Part shown: positions 13,613 through 20,618 of the stretch, piece by piece | Numbering within the stretch: the first letter of the stretch is position 1 | Layout of the letters: each line of letters begins with the position of its first letter | Source of the DNA: a virus | Virus record (IMG/VR): IMGVR_UViG_3300042516_000903 | Location: 1-26,174 of that record | Strand: one strand, 5' to 3' | Length of the DNA stretch: 26,174 nt | Notes under the pieces: model-generated | What the model was told of the DNA's origin: nothing | Seen by the model: the letters and a program-made list of their open reading frames with translations, nothing else | Databases searched by the model: none | Translations under genes and position numbers: made by a program

Positions 13613-13634
13613 AAGCCCCGAAAGGGGCTTTTTT
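13613..13634 (+). terminator. Strong intrinsic terminator of the rightward early operon
   Basis: AAGCCCC, GAAA loop, GGGGCTT, then TTTT. It lies three bases after the last small frame and touches the stop codon of the convergent primase-helicase gene. The minus strand copy has no T-run, so it acts mainly rightward. Confidence 0.9.
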
Positions 13635-15909
13635 ACGCGACCGCCCGGCGCATCTCTGACCGGGTCATATTGACCAACTCGGGCGCCACGAAGATATGCT
13701 TTTTAGAGTTGAAGTCTCGGGAATGGATCAGGCCCATGTCGAGCCAACCGGCCTCGCGGAATGCATGGAACAGGGCGCCCTGGACGATCTTAACGCCGGG
13801 CGGCGCTGCGCCCGACCCCTGGACACGGTCACAGACAACGTGAAACGGCGAACCGATCACGCCCTGGGCGAACGGCCCCTGGCGCCCGCGCATCATCTCG
13901 ACCAGCACCGACTCGGCGGTCGACATACCCGCCTCGACCATGATGGCCTTGGCTTCAGTCATTGGCGGCGGGGCGGCGGGGTTGAAGGCGGATACGTCAC
14001 GGGCCATCAGCCACGCCGCCACGCCCGCGAAGCCGCCCCGGTGGACGTACCAGTTCCAGAGGGCCACGGCGTCGGCCTCGGGCAGGCGTTCGGCAGCCGC
14101 CCATAGGACAAACCAGCGGCGGTCGTCGCTGGGCAGCGATATAGACACGCGCTCATTAGAGAAGGCGACGACCAGCACCCGGTTGAGGGCCATGTAAGGG
14201 TGCAAGCCCTTGCGGTTGACCGGCAGGTACTCGGGCGGGGCGGCGATCACTGGCTTAAGGTGATTCTCCAACGCCCGGCGGTCGCGGGCCTCGGACTGGC
14301 GCAACTCGGCGATCTCCATCACCTCGCACTCCAACCCGTAGCCCCACTGCGAGGTCAGGTCTTCATTCTTGACCAGCGAACAGTTCAGCTTGGCCGGGCC
14401 GCCGATGGCCCAGAAAAACGGGGCCAATAAAGTGTCTTTGCCACTGCCTGGCTTGCCGCCCAGCAGCACGGCATGGTTGATCTTATGGCCGGGGTACTGC
14501 ACCTTATGGGCCAGCACATTAAGAAGATGCTCACGCTCAAAGTCGAGCGGAACCATCCGCTCCAGATGGCGCAACCAGATGCTGACATCGCAGGCCACAG
14601 TCGGCGGGCGGGCGTCGCGCCAGCGGTTGCCGTAAACCAGCCCATCACGCGACACCAGCACCGACTCGCCAGCGGCGAAGGTGATGCCGACCAGCGACTT
14701 AGCGCCAGCGGCCTGCCGGTTCTCGTCGAAACAGACCGACGCCTCAATTCGGCGGGCGGCCTTGCCGGTGGAGTGAATCGACACGCACTTGATATGGCGA
14801 AACAGGGCATTGAAAGTCTGTCGGGGTATCTCGCGACGGTCTTGCATATCAAAGAACGCCTCGTCGTTCTGAAGGTACGCGAAACGCTGATACCAGCCCG
14901 ACTTCTCGACCCGCCCCAGTTCGCGCTGCTCGACCTCGGCGATGATTTCGGCGGCGGCGTCGGGGTAAGCGGCGCTAGGTTTGATCTTGGCAAGGGCCAG
15001 TTCAAGGTGCGCGGCCATCAGTTCGTCGCGCAGGCCGGGGGCGTGGCGGGGGCCGCCCTGGTCAGCGACCCACTGCATAAAGGTGTTGCTGTCCAGATCG
15101 ACGCAGTGGCCGTGCATACAGCAGAACGCCCGGTTAAGGGGCATATAGCGGCCCTCTGGGTTGCCGTCGGTATGCTCGGCGCTGTTGGGGCAGATGACGC
15201 CCGCCCAGCCCTCGGCGTTGGGGTGCGACAGCAGCAGACCCTGGCCGGACAGCCAGACCAGCACATCGTCGGCGCCATCGTCGGCCATTCGTATCGGGCG
15301 GGGGCCGGAGGACTCAGCCGGGCCGGGCGTCACATCAAGGGCGGCGCAGATGTCGGCCAACAGGTACTCGCGCTCGGGGTGGAACTCAACCAACGCAGAC
15401 GCAAACTCGGCCTTGTCAGGCTTAAGGTTGACCGAACCGGGCAGGCGGAAGTTGCGGACGGGGTTACAGGCGCCGGGGTCGGTGTAGCCCGCAGCGGCGA
15501 TGGCCTTGATGGCGGCGGCGAACTCGCCCTTAGGCGGCTGTTCGCTGAAAACGTAACCGTACTGGTAGTTGCCGGGCGACGTTTCCATGATCCAAGTCGG
15601 CGGCAGCGGCGGGGTCTTGGACTTAGTGCCGATGTCATCCAGCACCATCACCGCGCAGTACTCGCAGTTGGCCGCGCTGGCCGACACCCGACCGTCCTCG
15701 AAACGGTCGACGATGAACGACGCAGTATTGCCGTACCATGCCTCGCCCTCACGGACGCCGTGGGACGGCAGGTAAGAGGGCCAAGTGGCCTTGACAGCCC
15801 CGTCGGCGTGATACTGCCGTTCGCCGCCACGCAGTTGTGGTTTTTGGCGCACAAGTAACATTGTCTCGCCCTCGGGCGCCAGCTTAGTGATAAACTCTAG
15901 AAATTGCAC
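13633..15909 (-). CDS. Primase-helicase (RepB-like primase plus SF3-type helicase, DUF5906-like)
   Basis: A 758-residue replication protein. Residues 85-165 resemble an archaeo-eukaryotic/RepB-type primase: VMVLDDIGTK (D91-D92), TSPGNYQYGYVF (110-121) and VRNFRLPGSVNLK. Residues 238-270 hold C240, H246 and a CCMHGHC cluster, probably one zinc site. The helicase part has Walker A GGKPGSGKDT (484-493), an AELRQSEARDRR stretch and AFSNERVSISLPSDDRRWFV, typical of virulence-associated-E/DUF5906 phage helicases. It would prime and unwind at the fork for the polymerase encoded just upstream. The start is GTG, with AAGGA seven bases before it; no ATG fits. It is the last gene of the leftward replication operon. 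Confidence 0.88.
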   Translation of the reverse strand: MQFLEFITKLAPEGETMLLVRQKPQLRGGERQYHADGAVKATWPSYLPSHGVREGEAWYGNTASFIVDRFEDGRVSASAANCEYCAVMVLDDIGTKSKTPPLPPTWIMETSPGNYQYGYVFSEQPPKGEFAAAIKAIAAAGYTDPGACNPVRNFRLPGSVNLKPDKAEFASALVEFHPEREYLLADICAALDVTPGPAESSGPRPIRMADDGADDVLVWLSGQGLLLSHPNAEGWAGVICPNSAEHTDGNPEGRYMPLNRAFCCMHGHCVDLDSNTFMQWVADQGGPRHAPGLRDELMAAHLELALAKIKPSAAYPDAAAEIIAEVEQRELGRVEKSGWYQRFAYLQNDEAFFDMQDRREIPRQTFNALFRHIKCVSIHSTGKAARRIEASVCFDENRQAAGAKSLVGITFAAGESVLVSRDGLVYGNRWRDARPPTVACDVSIWLRHLERMVPLDFEREHLLNVLAHKVQYPGHKINHAVLLGGKPGSGKDTLLAPFFWAIGGPAKLNCSLVKNEDLTSQWGYGLECEVMEIAELRQSEARDRRALENHLKPVIAAPPEYLPVNRKGLHPYMALNRVLVVAFSNERVSISLPSDDRRWFVLWAAAERLPEADAVALWNWYVHRGGFAGVAAWLMARDVSAFNPAAPPPMTEAKAIMVEAGMSTAESVLVEMMRGRQGPFAQGVIGSPFHVVCDRVQGSGAAPPGVKIVQGALFHAFREAGWLDMGLIHSRDFNSKKHIFVAPELVNMTRSEMRRAVA

Positions 15910-15923
15910 GTTGTCATCCTTTG

Positions 15924-15954
15924 CGCCGCCCCTGACCGGGCGGCGTTTTTATTT
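15924..15954 (+). terminator. Rightward-facing intrinsic terminator on the non-coding strand
   Basis: CGCCGCCC, loop CTGACC, GGGCGGCG, then TTTTTATTT on the plus strand. No rightward gene precedes it, so it would stop antisense transcripts entering the replication operon. On the minus strand the same hairpin sits in the leader of the primase-helicase gene, ending just before its SD. Confidence 0.7.
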
Positions 15955-16332
15955 GGTTGCGATTAGACCCAGCTTATGCAGCTTGCGATCCGCCATGTTT
16001 TCTTTAACCGTTCCGTATTTGAGGTTAGATAGCTGGTTGTTAGTTTTATCTCCATCAAGGTGTCTAATTTCGCTGCGCCCCGTTGTACGTGGGCGCGCGC
16101 CGGCGAAGGACAGCAAAACCAGTTCATGTACATAAACTGTTTTTGTGACCCCTGCCCGGGCTAGCTTAACGCTGAGGTATGCGCCGGAAATAAAAAGTTT
16201 TAGCTCGCGTCCCTTGTACGTCATCCCCGTATGTCTTCCATACGGCACAGACCGGGTCAAAGACCGAATGTGGCCGTAGTTGCTGGCCTCATAAAAGCCT
16301 TCATATCCCGGTATTGATGTCCAAAGTTCCAT
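15949..16332 (-). CDS. HNH homing endonuclease (NUMOD4 plus HNH)
   Basis: A 127-residue free-standing homing endonuclease. It begins MELWTSIPGYEGFYEASNYG followed by HIRSL, the NUMOD4 signature, and has the HNH part VYVHELVLLSFAGARP (H69), then EIRHLDGDKTNNQLSNLKYG (H91, N99, N103). It would cut a specific site in the polymerase or primase region of related phages and spread itself by repair. ATG at 16332 with GGAAG upstream is preferred to the ATG at 16347, which would overlap the polymerase end. Its base composition is visibly richer in A+T than the G+C-rich genes on both sides, a sign of recent arrival. Confidence 0.88.
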   Translation of the reverse strand: MELWTSIPGYEGFYEASNYGHIRSLTRSVPYGRHTGMTYKGRELKLFISGAYLSVKLARAGVTKTVYVHELVLLSFAGARPRTTGRSEIRHLDGDKTNNQLSNLKYGTVKENMADRKLHKLGLIATK

Positions 16333-16336
16333 AGCG

Positions 16337-18274
16337 TCACTTCCCATATTTATTCATCGTCTTGATGCCACAAGCCAGCGGCAGGCCAGTGGCCCATGCT
16401 GGCGGCGTAGTCATCACTCTACGCACTTCCTCCTCTGAGCCGCCCTCGACGACGATCTCGTCGTGAACGTGCAGAACCACATCATCAAGCTGGCGCAGCG
16501 CGTAGCGCAGCAGATCGTTGGCGACAGCTTGGGTGACATTCTCACAGGCCAGCCCCTTCCAAAGTCGGGCGCGGGGCCACTCGGTGGCGTCCTGGGCAGG
16601 CTTCCACGCTGCCTTGGCGTAGCTGATGCCGTCGTCCTCCAGCCGGGCGAAGGGGTAGCATAGCACCCGGCCAGAAGGTAGAGCGTACCAGAGATGCAGG
16701 CCGTCGAACAGGTAAGTTATCCGCCCGGCGGTGAACTCCTGCCCACGGTTCCGCATCGCCCTGGTGTACTGCTGCTCCAACTGCGACCAGAAGCCGACCG
16801 CCCACTGATTGTTGCGGCGCCACGCGTCGACCATCCGCTTAGAGTCGGCCTCGGACAGGCGCACACTGTAGATGCGGGCCATCGACGCAAACGCGCCGAC
16901 ACCGCCAGCAAAGCCGCAGGCCAACTCCTGCACCTTGCCGATCTGGCGCTGCGCGGACTCGCCGTCGCGGTCGTAGTCGGCCTTGATGTCGTCATAGGTA
17001 CGGTTGAACGTGCCAGATGCGTTGACGATGTAGGGGTCAAGCCCCGACTCGAAAACGTCCAGCTTGGCCTGACCCTTACCAGACAGCCAAGGGTTAACCC
17101 GCGCCTCAATGGATGACCAATCGGCGACGACGAACTGCCGACCCTTGGCCGGGATCAGCGCGGGGCGCAGCATCCCCCGGAGAACGTCGGTGACGCGCTT
17201 GCCGTACTTAGGGACGATGGCGTGGCCCCGGCACATCGCGGCCCGGACATCCTCGGGGGCTTTAGCGCACTTGCGGGTGAAGTTGTGAACCTGGGCGCCG
17301 TAGCTGCTGGCCCGGCCAGTGGCGCTGCCGCCTGCGAACACGAACGCGCCCCGGACGCGACTGTCCTCCTCGTCGGCCAGTTGGGCCAAGCGGTTGAACT
17401 TGGCTACACTGGACGCCCACAGGTCGTCGGCGCACTGGATGATCTCCTGAACGTCGGGCGGCACTCCGTCGCAGTTCAGCAGGTTAGCGCGGACGGTCTT
17501 GTCAATGCTGACCTTGTCGTCCTTGGTCATCAGGGCGCGGGCCTCGGGGCCGACACGATCCCAGACCCACTGGCGCATCTTAGGCGACCGTACAGAGACA
17601 AGCTCACCCGCCGACACTTCCTTGACGATCTCGGCAATCTCAGCGGCCTCTGCGGCGGCGTAGCTTACCGCTGCGCGGCAGAGCGGCACATCGACCAGAA
17701 CGCCACGGTCGTTGATGCGCTCGTTGACATGGTAGTCGGCCAGTTCCTCGTCCGACAGCGGGCGCATGGCCTGGCTGATGGCCCGCATCGCGCGGACGTC
17801 CTGCATGGCATATTCGCCAAGTTCAACAAGCACTTTTGGGTCGGCGCTAAAAGGTGGAATACAGCAGGCGCGAATTAGTTGCTTACCACGATGATCTTTC
17901 TTCATGCCAGCACCCGCAAATCGACCCGCATCCTCAAGTGAACCAGGGGCACAATTGGCGCGGGCCTGTGCTGCCGTGCAATACCAACGCTCTAACGCAG
18001 GCTCGGCTAAACTGTAGTCCGGGCAAATAGCATACCAAGTTATGAGCCGGTCAAAGCTGGCGTTGTGGCAGCGTATTTGGCCCTCAGATTTAAAATAGTC
18101 GGCCAACCGTTGTGGCACTGGCTCAACGGCCCACCATAGTTGCACATCCTCGTTGTCAAACGCATATGCTGCACACAGCATTTTTGTTGATGAATGCTGG
18201 CTATAGTTATAAGCCCCTCTCGACAAAAGATCGCATTCACTTTTTGACTCATAGTCGAGCCATAACACAGTCAT
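16337..18274 (-). CDS. Family A DNA polymerase with 3'-5' exonuclease domain
   Basis: A 645-residue PolA-type replicase. The DEDD exonuclease is intact: LDYES (D7, E9), HNASFDR (N71, D75) and YAMQD (Y155, D159). The polymerase has motif A DWSSIEAR (385-392), motif B RQIGKVQELACGFAGGVGAF (443-462) and motif C HVHDE (HDE at 604-606). No 5'-3' exonuclease is present, normal for phage versions. The ATG at 18274 overlaps the HNH stop as ATGA and directly precedes the exonuclease motif; the longer frame from 18307 adds nothing conserved. The first 150 codons are about 40-53% G+C in lines I counted, against about 70% for the following region, suggesting a recombination joint near 17830. Confidence 0.95.
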   Translation of the reverse strand: MTVLWLDYESKSECDLLSRGAYNYSQHSSTKMLCAAYAFDNEDVQLWWAVEPVPQRLADYFKSEGQIRCHNASFDRLITWYAICPDYSLAEPALERWYCTAAQARANCAPGSLEDAGRFAGAGMKKDHRGKQLIRACCIPPFSADPKVLVELGEYAMQDVRAMRAISQAMRPLSDEELADYHVNERINDRGVLVDVPLCRAAVSYAAAEAAEIAEIVKEVSAGELVSVRSPKMRQWVWDRVGPEARALMTKDDKVSIDKTVRANLLNCDGVPPDVQEIIQCADDLWASSVAKFNRLAQLADEEDSRVRGAFVFAGGSATGRASSYGAQVHNFTRKCAKAPEDVRAAMCRGHAIVPKYGKRVTDVLRGMLRPALIPAKGRQFVVADWSSIEARVNPWLSGKGQAKLDVFESGLDPYIVNASGTFNRTYDDIKADYDRDGESAQRQIGKVQELACGFAGGVGAFASMARIYSVRLSEADSKRMVDAWRRNNQWAVGFWSQLEQQYTRAMRNRGQEFTAGRITYLFDGLHLWYALPSGRVLCYPFARLEDDGISYAKAAWKPAQDATEWPRARLWKGLACENVTQAVANDLLRYALRQLDDVVLHVHDEIVVEGGSEEEVRRVMTTPPAWATGLPLACGIKTMNKYGK

Positions 18275-18657
18275 GCGGACACCTGCACTTTTCGCTTTGT
18301 GTGCCAATGTTTGTTTTCATATGTGTGTACGCGATGACAGTTGGCGCAAAGAATTTCGCACTTGTCTATTTCAGCCAACAGCTTGTGCATCGCCACTTTA
18401 GGGTCTTGGCTAATGCTAAACGCTTTGTCGCCACATATGTGGTTGAAATCAAGCGCGGCAGAATGCGTGTTGTACCCACACGCCGCGCAGCCGCGCTCAG
18501 TCTTAATCTTATTAAGCAAATCTCGCCGTACCTGCTGGAACGCTTGCGTTGCCAACTTTTTAGACGGCGAATTGTGCCTGCATTTAGGCGCGCAAAATTT
18601 TTGCCAAGCGCGTGCTGGCGTAAACAGCGCGGCGCAAGTAGGGCAATTTATTTCCAT
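18271..18657 (-). CDS. HNH endonuclease with N-terminal zinc ribbon
   Basis: A 128-residue protein with C5-x2-C8 and C22-x3-C26 (a zinc ribbon), then an HNH core: C57-A-A-C60-G, LDFNH73, and C104-A-N-C107-H108-R-V-H111, where the two CxxC pairs hold a structural zinc. It is a probable homing or mobile endonuclease. A strong SD (AAAGGAG, eight bases before ATG) fixes the start at 18657. Its stop overlaps the polymerase start as ATGA, so it has become part of the operon and is translated with the polymerase. Its A+T-richer composition extends into the polymerase gene. Confidence 0.85.
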   Translation of the reverse strand: MEINCPTCAALFTPARAWQKFCAPKCRHNSPSKKLATQAFQQVRRDLLNKIKTERGCAACGYNTHSAALDFNHICGDKAFSISQDPKVAMHKLLAEIDKCEILCANCHRVHTYENKHWHTKRKVQVSA

Positions 18658-18710
18658 AGCACGGTCTCCTTTTCCAATGCCCACTCTTGCGAATGGGCAT
18701 CAGGAAGCGA

Positions 18711-19337
18711 TTACGCTACGCGACGACGGCGCCCGGCTGGTGCCGGTGCCTCGACTTCAGGCTCACCATCCATGCTCACCCATTCGATAATCTCAAACAC
18801 CGGAGTGTAGATTTTGCCGTAGGACTTGTGCTGGTAGTGATCCTTCTTCAACTTCACGACGGCCACAGGCTTGGTCTGATCAACATCAACCTGCTCGGCC
18901 AGCGCGGCGGCAATAGCCTGGACGCCACGCTTACCGCCGACCGAGGTCGTGGTGTAGCGCACTTCCATGCCCTTGTCGTCACCTGACAGGCACTTGAGGC
19001 TCATGCCAATCTGCTGCTCCCAGCCACGCTTGGCTGATGGGGGCGCGTCTTCAATCTCCGGCAGCGGCTGGCTGACGGCGACCATCTTCTCGCCAAGCAC
19101 CTCACCGTCGCCCCAGGCAATAAAGCCGTGGACAAAGGAGAAGGGATTGACGGCCCAGGTCGAGTCGTCCTCAACCTCGGTCTGGTCAGCGCCAAACACC
19201 CAATGGCCGGTCTTGTCCATCTTGAGGATGACAACACCGGATGGGCCAGCCGCCGACACGGCCATGCTCTTCAACGCAGTTGAAAGGGTACTGATAGCTG
19301 GCAGACCAGCTTTTGAGAACACTGAAAGATTACTCAT
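18711..19337 (-). CDS. 208-residue replication-associated protein, possible ssDNA-binding protein
   Basis: Begins MSNLSVFSKAGLPAISTLST and contains GHWVFGADQTEVEDDSTWAV, NPFSFVHGFIAWGDGEVLGE, RYTTTSVGGKRGVQAIAAAL, and ends with a short charged linker and RRRRVA. The beta-rich core with many aromatics (W, F, Y) could be an OB-like fold. It lies between a DUF2800 nuclease and PolA, where other phages carry the DUF2815 (Enc34-like) single-strand DNA-binding protein, but the sequence does not look like DUF2815 to me. Single-strand binding is therefore inferred from position. Good SD AAAGG six bases before ATG. Confidence 0.65.
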   Translation of the reverse strand: MSNLSVFSKAGLPAISTLSTALKSMAVSAAGPSGVVILKMDKTGHWVFGADQTEVEDDSTWAVNPFSFVHGFIAWGDGEVLGEKMVAVSQPLPEIEDAPPSAKRGWEQQIGMSLKCLSGDDKGMEVRYTTTSVGGKRGVQAIAAALAEQVDVDQTKPVAVVKLKKDHYQHKSYGKIYTPVFEIIEWVSMDGEPEVEAPAPAGRRRRVA

Positions 19338-19345
19338 GATTACCT

Positions 19346-20470
19346 TTAGGAGAGTTTAGAAAGATGGGCAAGTCGTTTGCCCAGCAGCAGTACCTCGGGG
19401 CGTGGATCATCCACGCTTGCCAAGGTGTTACCTGAGGAGATGGCGACGACCACATCAGCAGGAAGGGCGATCTTGCGCTTTTTGAGCACCTTCTCAACCT
19501 TCGCGGGCGACATGATAGAAGTCTCCATCACCTCAGATTCGTCAAGGCCCAACGCAAACAAGGCGACCTTGGCCTTGTCCTCGTCAGTCCATTGTCTGAT
19601 CGCCCGTTTAGCGACCAGTTTGTACTCGGGCAGATTAGCCCCGGACTCCATCATGGAGAGCGCCAACTCCCGCAGGCTGGAAATCCAGGTCTCCAACAAA
19701 TCCGCGTTTTTTAAGTAGGTGCTGATTTTTCCCGCGTCTAAATTGTCCAGCTTGACGGCCAGCGCCCGGTCGGCAGCGCCTGTCATCTGTGGGCAGATGG
19801 GCTTGGCGGTACAGAACCGGCAGTGGTCGCCCACCGTAAGCTGCGCGTCAGGGAAGGACGACAGCTTAACGGCCTGCACCAGATCACGCTCGAACTGCCG
19901 AATGCGCTCGGGCGTCGTCACCCACCGCCGTACTGCTGGCGGTTGGATGATGACGCACTCCACCTCGGTGGCGCCATCAAACGCCCAGGCCGACTCTTGC
20001 GTCCGCATGGCAGCCGCAGCGTAGAACATCAACTGCGCGTTCTCCTCGGCGTCGACGATCACGCCGTCGCCGAACTTCCAGTCCAGCACGATGGCGCGGT
20101 TGCCGATTCGACCGATAAGGTCGGTCGAGCCAAACACGCCCGGCAGCAGATCGCCGAAACCGACACGGGTTTCGGTGGCAAAGTTCATCTCCTCCTTGGG
20201 GTCGACTTCGTTCAGCAGCGCCAGCGCCGACTTCAGCTTCTCGCAGTGGTCTTCGCTCAACGCGACGCCGTTGAAGTTCTTGTCGAGCAGGCTGTACGGG
20301 CTGGCGTCGCCGTCGTTGACCAAGTAATCAATGGCAGAATGCAGCGCCGTACCCTCGGCCATGTACTTGTTTTCGGCCTGGGGCGGCATCTTGGCGACCA
20401 GCGCCACACTGCCGGGGCAGGCCATCACACGCTTGGCGGTCGAGCCGCCAACAATTTTACTGTGCTGCAT
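19346..20470 (-). CDS. DUF2800 family PD-(D/E)XK exonuclease (Cas4/AddB-like)
   Basis: A 374-residue nuclease. Conserved pieces: STAKRVMACPGS (C18), YMAEGTALHSAIDYL (H44), GVFGSTDLIG (D117), VLDWKFGDG (D130, K132) and QLMFY (Q147), the RecB-type active site; C217, C220 and C226 (HCRFCTAKPICPQM) with C18 complete the four Cys that hold a 4Fe-4S cluster in Cas4/AddB relatives. It probably processes DNA ends during phage recombination or replication. ATG at 20470 starts the family's usual N-terminus and lies in the end of the previous gene (14-base overlap); the longer frame only adds a Lys run. It is followed by the 208-residue protein after 8 bases. Confidence 0.88.
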   Translation of the reverse strand: MQHSKIVGGSTAKRVMACPGSVALVAKMPPQAENKYMAEGTALHSAIDYLVNDGDASPYSLLDKNFNGVALSEDHCEKLKSALALLNEVDPKEEMNFATETRVGFGDLLPGVFGSTDLIGRIGNRAIVLDWKFGDGVIVDAEENAQLMFYAAAAMRTQESAWAFDGATEVECVIIQPPAVRRWVTTPERIRQFERDLVQAVKLSSFPDAQLTVGDHCRFCTAKPICPQMTGAADRALAVKLDNLDAGKISTYLKNADLLETWISSLRELALSMMESGANLPEYKLVAKRAIRQWTDEDKAKVALFALGLDESEVMETSIMSPAKVEKVLKKRKIALPADVVVAISSGNTLASVDDPRPEVLLLGKRLAHLSKLS

Positions 20471-20618
20471 CTTCTTCTTCTTTCTTCGAGACGGTGATGA
20501 TTGAAGGGATGTTGCTATAGCGAGTATCAATCTCGTTAAAGCTGTAGCCTTCGATGAGGGAATTGGCGTGCGCCAGGATGATGCGCTCGATTTCGGCGCG
20601 GGAGAATTCGATCTTCAT
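20457..20618 (-). CDS. 53-residue small protein at the head of the replication operon
   Basis: MKIEFSRAEIERIILAHANS, LIEGYSFNEIDTRYSNIPSI, ITVSKKEEEDAAQ. Similar short proteins (KIEF-R-EIERIIL-HAN) often stand directly before DUF2800 in phages; their function is unknown. ATG at 20618 was chosen because the longer frame would run into the promoter region and starts with a hydrophobic stretch without an SD. The SD is weak (GAAAGTAAAG). It is the first gene of the leftward replication operon. Confidence 0.7.
   Translation of the reverse strand: MKIEFSRAEIERIILAHANSLIEGYSFNEIDTRYSNIPSIITVSKKEEEDAAQ

Follow-up and report, generated by a model that had tools for sequence, protein, structure and literature searches.

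The locus considered here raises the question of why the DNA polymerase gene of a bacterial virus changes its base composition part way through the reading frame, near the end of the proofreading domain and next to a gene encoding an HNH endonuclease. The window, by which we mean the whole stretch analyzed, is the 26,174-bp virus fragment IMGVR_UViG_3300042516_000903. On its minus strand, transcription runs from the gene of an SSB-like protein (18711-19337, a name guessed from gene order alone) through those of the HNH endonuclease, a family A DNA polymerase, and a second nuclease with NUMOD4 and HNH_3 domains to that of a primase-helicase-like protein (Table 1). The initial annotation had read the composition change as co-conversion during homing, in which the endonuclease brought its flanking polymerase sequence with it.

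Table 1. Genes, domains, and junctions at the polymerase locus of the window.
Feature	Position	Strand	Remarks
SSB-like protein gene	18711-19337	(-)	First of these genes in transcription order
Free-standing HNH endonuclease gene	18271..18657	(-)	128 aa from ATG; GGAAAAGGAG ahead of start
Family A DNA polymerase	16337-18274	(-)	645 codons; joined to HNH gene by ATGA overlap
NUMOD4 + HNH_3 nuclease gene	15949..16347	(-)	Pfam NUMOD4 2.3e-13, HNH_3 2.4e-7; at polymerase 3' end
Primase-helicase-like protein	13633-15909	(-)	Last of these genes in transcription order
Polymerase codons 1-157, 3'-5' exonuclease (proofreading) domain of HNH-associated type	17804..18274	(-)	G+C 0.50
Resident rest of polymerase, codons 158-645	16337..17803	(-)	G+C 0.65; 97% aa identity to L002/L003; groups with L002/L003 in tree
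Foreign (putatively co-converted) tract, HNH gene plus polymerase codons 1-157	17804..18667	(-)	About 864 bp; limits from DNA identity, GC3 change point
Right junction, exo III motif split Y155-A-M / Q158-D159-V	17794..17812	(-)	Likelihood junction, codon 157, against L002 and L003
Left junction, ribosome-binding site and polymerase start of empty allele (GGGCATTGGAAAA)	18658..18690	(-)	DNA comparison

The G+C values per 60-base line given in that annotation, falling from about 70% to 53% and 40%, were all reproduced (0.717, 0.700, 0.533, 0.533, and 0.400). The change had been placed at about codon 150, within the polymerase gene and near the end of the exonuclease domain, and a likelihood change point in third-position G+C (GC3) indeed falls at codon 155, GC3 being 0.465 before it and 0.812 after it. 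The LLR of this change point is 33.4, whereas the maximum among 2000 codon shuffles was 10.2 (p <= 0.0005), which rules out a chance swing in composition. As also claimed, the A+T-richer part runs on into the HNH gene, whose G+C of 0.50 equals that of polymerase codons 1-155, compared to 0.65 in the polymerase remainder and 0.64 in the primase gene. The lowest-G+C 864-bp stretch of the replication block (13633-20530) begins at 17810; across the whole window, 10% of the 864-bp stretches have equal or lower G+C, and the signal therefore consists in the local step inside one gene. In L002 and L003, the closest relatives lacking the HNH gene, GC3 of the exonuclease part is 0.76 and 0.74, respectively, versus 0.81 for the rest of the gene. 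Neither shows a comparable step, and the deep drop is thus peculiar to the HNH carrier.

The same relatives delimit the foreign DNA, which occupies positions 17804 to 18667. On both sides of it, the window shares about 96% DNA identity with L002 and L003; this identity breaks off at 18667, where the polymerase has its ribosome-binding region, and restarts at 17804/17803. The tract of 17830-18657 proposed in the initial annotation is real, but its limits as set by homology are slightly wider. At the amino acid level, identity to L002 and L003 amounts to 100% for the SSB-like protein and to 97% for both polymerase residues 151-645 and the primase, as opposed to only 53-54% for polymerase residues 3-142. 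The closest exonuclease part, with 86% amino acid identity, belongs to L049, which has no HNH gene, while the closest relative of the HNH protein is 76% identical. Searches with the exonuclease and the HNH protein as queries did not find the actual donor of the tract. Among cellular genomes, only distant relatives were found, at most 49% identical over part of the protein.

Separate phylogenies of the two polymerase parts, a check suggested in the initial annotation, were built from 82 representatives and gave a well-supported conflict. In the exonuclease tree, the window falls within a 22-row clade (support 100/98) holding every HNH carrier, whereas in the tree of the remaining polymerase part it groups with L002 and L003. 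Forcing the window exonuclease to its native relatives was rejected (AU p = 7.2e-8), and a tree constrained to make the polymerase parts of all HNH carriers monophyletic was rejected as well (p = 1.05e-5). The presence of the HNH gene requires 8 changes on the exonuclease tree versus 13 on the polymerase tree, and HNH distances correlate with those of the exonuclease only moderately better than with those of the polymerase remainder (Mantel 0.52 versus 0.40).

We then considered 234 distinct related polymerases, 33 of which have the HNH-associated exonuclease type and 201 other types. An HNH gene lies upstream of 19 of the 33 and of none of the 201; the 14 polymerases of the HNH-associated type without it need either a later loss of HNH or a transfer free of HNH. 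Pairs of polymerases were taken as close when their polymerase parts were at least 90% identical and as discordant when their exonucleases differed by more than 20 points. By these definitions, discordance is seen in 151 of the 153 close pairs that combine the two exonuclease types, and exonuclease swaps are absent from all 1571 close pairs of other types; when the cut-offs are relaxed to 85% and 15 points, 6 of 2141 other-type pairs are discordant. Close pairs are not independent of one another, and the relevant count is that of five mixed groups, represented by the window, L088, L110, L111/L113/L115, and L129 with the HNH-less L141 and L145, each of which includes an HNH carrier with a foreign exonuclease. 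Recent exonuclease swaps therefore always involve the HNH-associated type. A sign test on independent pairs, which comprised only 6 starred pairs, gave a median p of 0.06 and is not significant on its own. Judging from these comparisons, the same package of HNH gene and exonuclease, with the same two ends, appears to have entered related viruses at least five separate times. The co-conversion proposed in the initial annotation is thereby supported by the conflicting trees, by the absence of the step in HNH-less relatives, and by the recurrence of one package in five recipient groups; this recurrence with the same end points goes further than what had been proposed.

The composition follows the package. 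The difference in GC3 between the exonuclease part and the rest of the polymerase averages -0.158 among the 19 HNH carriers, being negative in every one of them, is intermediate (-0.081; negative in 11 of 14) where the same exonuclease type occurs without HNH, and has the opposite direction among the 201 polymerases of other types (mean, +0.057). The A+T-richness thus belongs to the travelling unit, and its simplest source would be a donor lineage with lower G+C, the mark of which is erased only slowly.

The end points of the unit were compared among the groups. The right junction, fitted by likelihood, lies after codon 157 in the window, at 157-158 in L088, at 157 in L110 and L129, and at 158-161 in L111, and in all five groups it falls inside the exo III catalytic motif, which it splits as Y155-x-x / Q158-D159. 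This motif reads YCEQDV in 176 of the 201 native alleles and Y(A/G)xQD(V/I) in all 33 polymerases of the HNH-associated type. The left junction, which is resolvable in every group except that of L111, maps to the start codon of the polymerase or to its ribosome-binding site in the window, L088, L110, and L129. In the window, the ribosome-binding site that serves the polymerase in the empty allele (GGGCATTGGAAAA) serves the HNH gene, and L129 and L354 share a 169-bp stretch of 100% identity that runs through the first polymerase codons. In the older events L090 and L117, where divergence is high on both sides, the right junction is fitted at codon 97 and not at 157. L117 and the HNH-less L118 are nearly identical apart from the HNH gene upstream of the polymerase, which is flanked in L117 by a 10-bp direct repeat, ATGAGCATTT, equal to the start of the polymerase gene. 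This difference fits either a clean loss of HNH or its gain at the start codon. That the right end always falls at exo III may mean that the nuclease cuts there, that homology is sufficient in this patch, or that a working hybrid exonuclease is not possible beyond this point. Stretches with a comparable length of match exist near codons 100-110 but did not serve as junctions, a mild argument against homology alone fixing the right end. The recurrence of the junction suggests where the nuclease may cut.

The upstream endonuclease matches the HNH endonucleases of PHROG 2255 (E = 1.9e-24), and its catalytic and zinc-binding residues (CxxC, FNH, CxNCH) are invariant across 15 relatives. The Pfam HNH match is weak (best E, 0.023; 3 of 15 members), neither NUMOD nor HNH_3 was matched in this gene or its 14 aligned relatives, no relative was found by sequence in the PDB, and AlphaFold returned a low-confidence model (mean pLDDT, 63). 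The polymerase frame is unbroken and the HNH gene is a gene of its own directly upstream, not located within an intron or intein; a search of the window against Rfam gave no match to a group I intron or to any other known RNA. The nuclease is under strong purifying selection, with dN/dS of 0.06-0.15 in eight pairs. In most carriers its stop codon overlaps the polymerase start as ATGA, and for this reason the polymerase is probably translated by coupling to HNH. Relatives of the HNH protein, down to 47-50% identity, are encoded directly upstream of family A polymerases at nearly every locus with enough flanking sequence, even where these polymerases are only about 30% identical, and HNH is thus a mobile gene dedicated to that site. 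Its intact domain, its own gene, the constraint on it, the co-conversion tract, and the empty alleles of close relatives (L002/L003; L118 in comparison with L117) make it a probable free-standing homing endonuclease. Members of the same HNH family (50-62% amino acid identity) are also found upstream of polymerases that are only about 30% identical to that of the window and have their own exonuclease domains, in L216, L217, L219, L222-L227, and L229, where HNH seems to move without the exonuclease domain.

The NUMOD4/HNH_3 gene, located at the 3' end of the polymerase, was inserted separately and is unrelated to the upstream HNH gene. It is absent in L002, L003, and L012 and has a counterpart of 97% amino acid identity in L013, which has the native exonuclease type; the window copy is closer to that of L013 than the flanking sequences are. 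The gene ends on the former polymerase stop codon and terminator hairpin, and its insertion altered only the last few polymerase codons. With HNH at its start and NUMOD4/HNH_3 at its stop, the polymerase thus lies between two homing-type genes that are unrelated to each other. In L025, L031, L097, L100, L101, L112, L148, and L149, the gap between the SSB-like and polymerase genes is occupied by genes for NUMOD-type nucleases, and because these lie at the same site, the gap looks like a hotspot for homing genes. In L088 (3505-3624), the HNH gene is immediately preceded by a structured element of about 110 nt that is highly conserved. The element is present in five carriers, L088, L059, L086, L087, and L091, and is absent upstream of the HNH gene of the window; a nearly identical element precedes the NUMOD4-type genes (MENWK..IPGYEG start) of L165, L178, L188, and L192. 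Its hairpin loop TTGGCGG can pair with CCGCCAA in a second, long hairpin terminated by a T run, covariation is seen at 7 of 38 pairs among 8 sequences, the RNAfold z is about -6, and no Rfam family was matched. The element looks like a leader or terminator common to unrelated homing genes.

We consider intronless homing with co-conversion of the proofreading domain to be the best explanation of the locus, with a probability of roughly 80%. In this scheme, a phage family A DNA polymerase gene has a free-standing HNH homing endonuclease at its start, which, during mixed infection, would cut the polymerase gene of an HNH-less phage. Repair off the carrier would copy the nuclease gene and, with it, the polymerase sequence from the start codon through the exo III motif, as far as codon 157, where the two sequences resemble each other once more. 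In the recipient, the nuclease would come to lie behind the polymerase's own ribosome-binding site, the polymerase would restart at the ATGA overlap, and the new proofreading domain would presumably resist the nuclease. Only tentatively do we extend this to a single co-adapted selfish unit of HNH and exonuclease, with a predicted cut at the exo III codons (native YCEQDV), about 460 bp from the HNH gene, and a resistant travelling Y-A/G-x-QD variant, leading to repeated replacement of the proofreading domain.

Ordinary phage mosaicism, in which the exonuclease is exchanged by recombination at conserved patches (the start region and exo III) and HNH is a passenger, agrees with the fact that both junctions fall in conserved sequence and with the 14 HNH-less polymerases of the HNH-associated type, which include L141 and L145 from a recently converted group. 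However, close pairs of other types have the same conserved patches and no swaps, an HNH carrier is present in every recent swap group, and the patches at codons 100-110 were passed over, and we deem this account unlikely. Still less probable is that the exonuclease variant is itself selected, for instance because it alters the rate of proofreading or evades a host factor, with HNH kept only by linkage or translational coupling: the variant does persist in HNH-less lineages, and the polymerase start is embedded in the HNH stop, but HNH is intact and strongly constrained, and it adjoins very different polymerases that keep their own exonuclease domain. An intrinsic step, whether vertically inherited and caused by local codon bias close to the start of the gene or produced as an assembly chimera, has nothing in its favor beyond the step itself and only a negligible chance of being correct, given that the step is absent in HNH-less relatives and that the phylogenies of the two polymerase parts conflict. 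A chimera was rejected, as contig L001 is identical over 7 kb and the same junctions are found in five groups.

In Bacillus phages, the HNH nucleases I-HmuI and I-HmuII are encoded in introns of the DNA polymerase gene and bias the inheritance of its flanks. The HNH protein of the window is likewise an HNH nuclease tied to a phage DNA polymerase gene, but I-HmuI and I-HmuII are intron encoded and have NUMOD/HNH_3-type domains, whereas it has neither an intron nor a NUMOD match; it is the nuclease at 15949-16347 that carries I-HmuI-like domains, NUMOD4 and HNH_3. PMC2988022 cites marker exclusion for the HMU phages. Free-standing phage endonucleases can cut at a distance of hundreds of bases, recognize active-site codons, and have the interval co-converted (PMC2988022), and the pattern in the window fits this behavior well. 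T4 SegF, SegG, and MobE are, like the HNH of the window, free-standing nucleases beside an essential replication gene whose neighboring sequence is replaced; they are known for intronless homing and marker exclusion, and the cut site may lie hundreds of bases off the nuclease gene (PMC2988022). SegF and SegG are GIY-YIG enzymes, and the HNH of the window may belong to a different sequence family. In contrast to the T4 systems, what is replaced here, as read from the sequences, is one of the catalytic domains of the polymerase, and the replaced stretch has the same ends in five natural groups. In ICP1 and other phages, nucleases near or bracketing essential genes also flank exchanged regions, but these HEG-bounded islands exceed 10 kb and comprise whole genes (PMC10448857), while the unit of the window measures 864 bp and ends inside a catalytic motif. 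Skunavirus HNH endonucleases, in the excerpted text of PMC12724721, resemble that of the window in their fixed sites and marker exclusion, and an HNH-adjacent DNA polymerase gene is reported there to be similar over part of its length only; a domain-level tract with fixed ends, as present in the window, is not among the features described in that excerpt.

The kind of event described here is already known; what is new is the recurrent exchange of a proofreading domain between fixed boundaries. What is known of co-conversion by homing endonucleases comes mainly from crosses of T4-like phages made in the laboratory, and in the natural sequences analyzed here it is seen as repeated events with identical ends. 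Since the exchanged piece is the proofreading domain of the replicative polymerase, a selfish element could influence the fidelity of phages and the evolution of their polymerases, and two histories would be mixed in the polymerase trees on which viral ecology draws.
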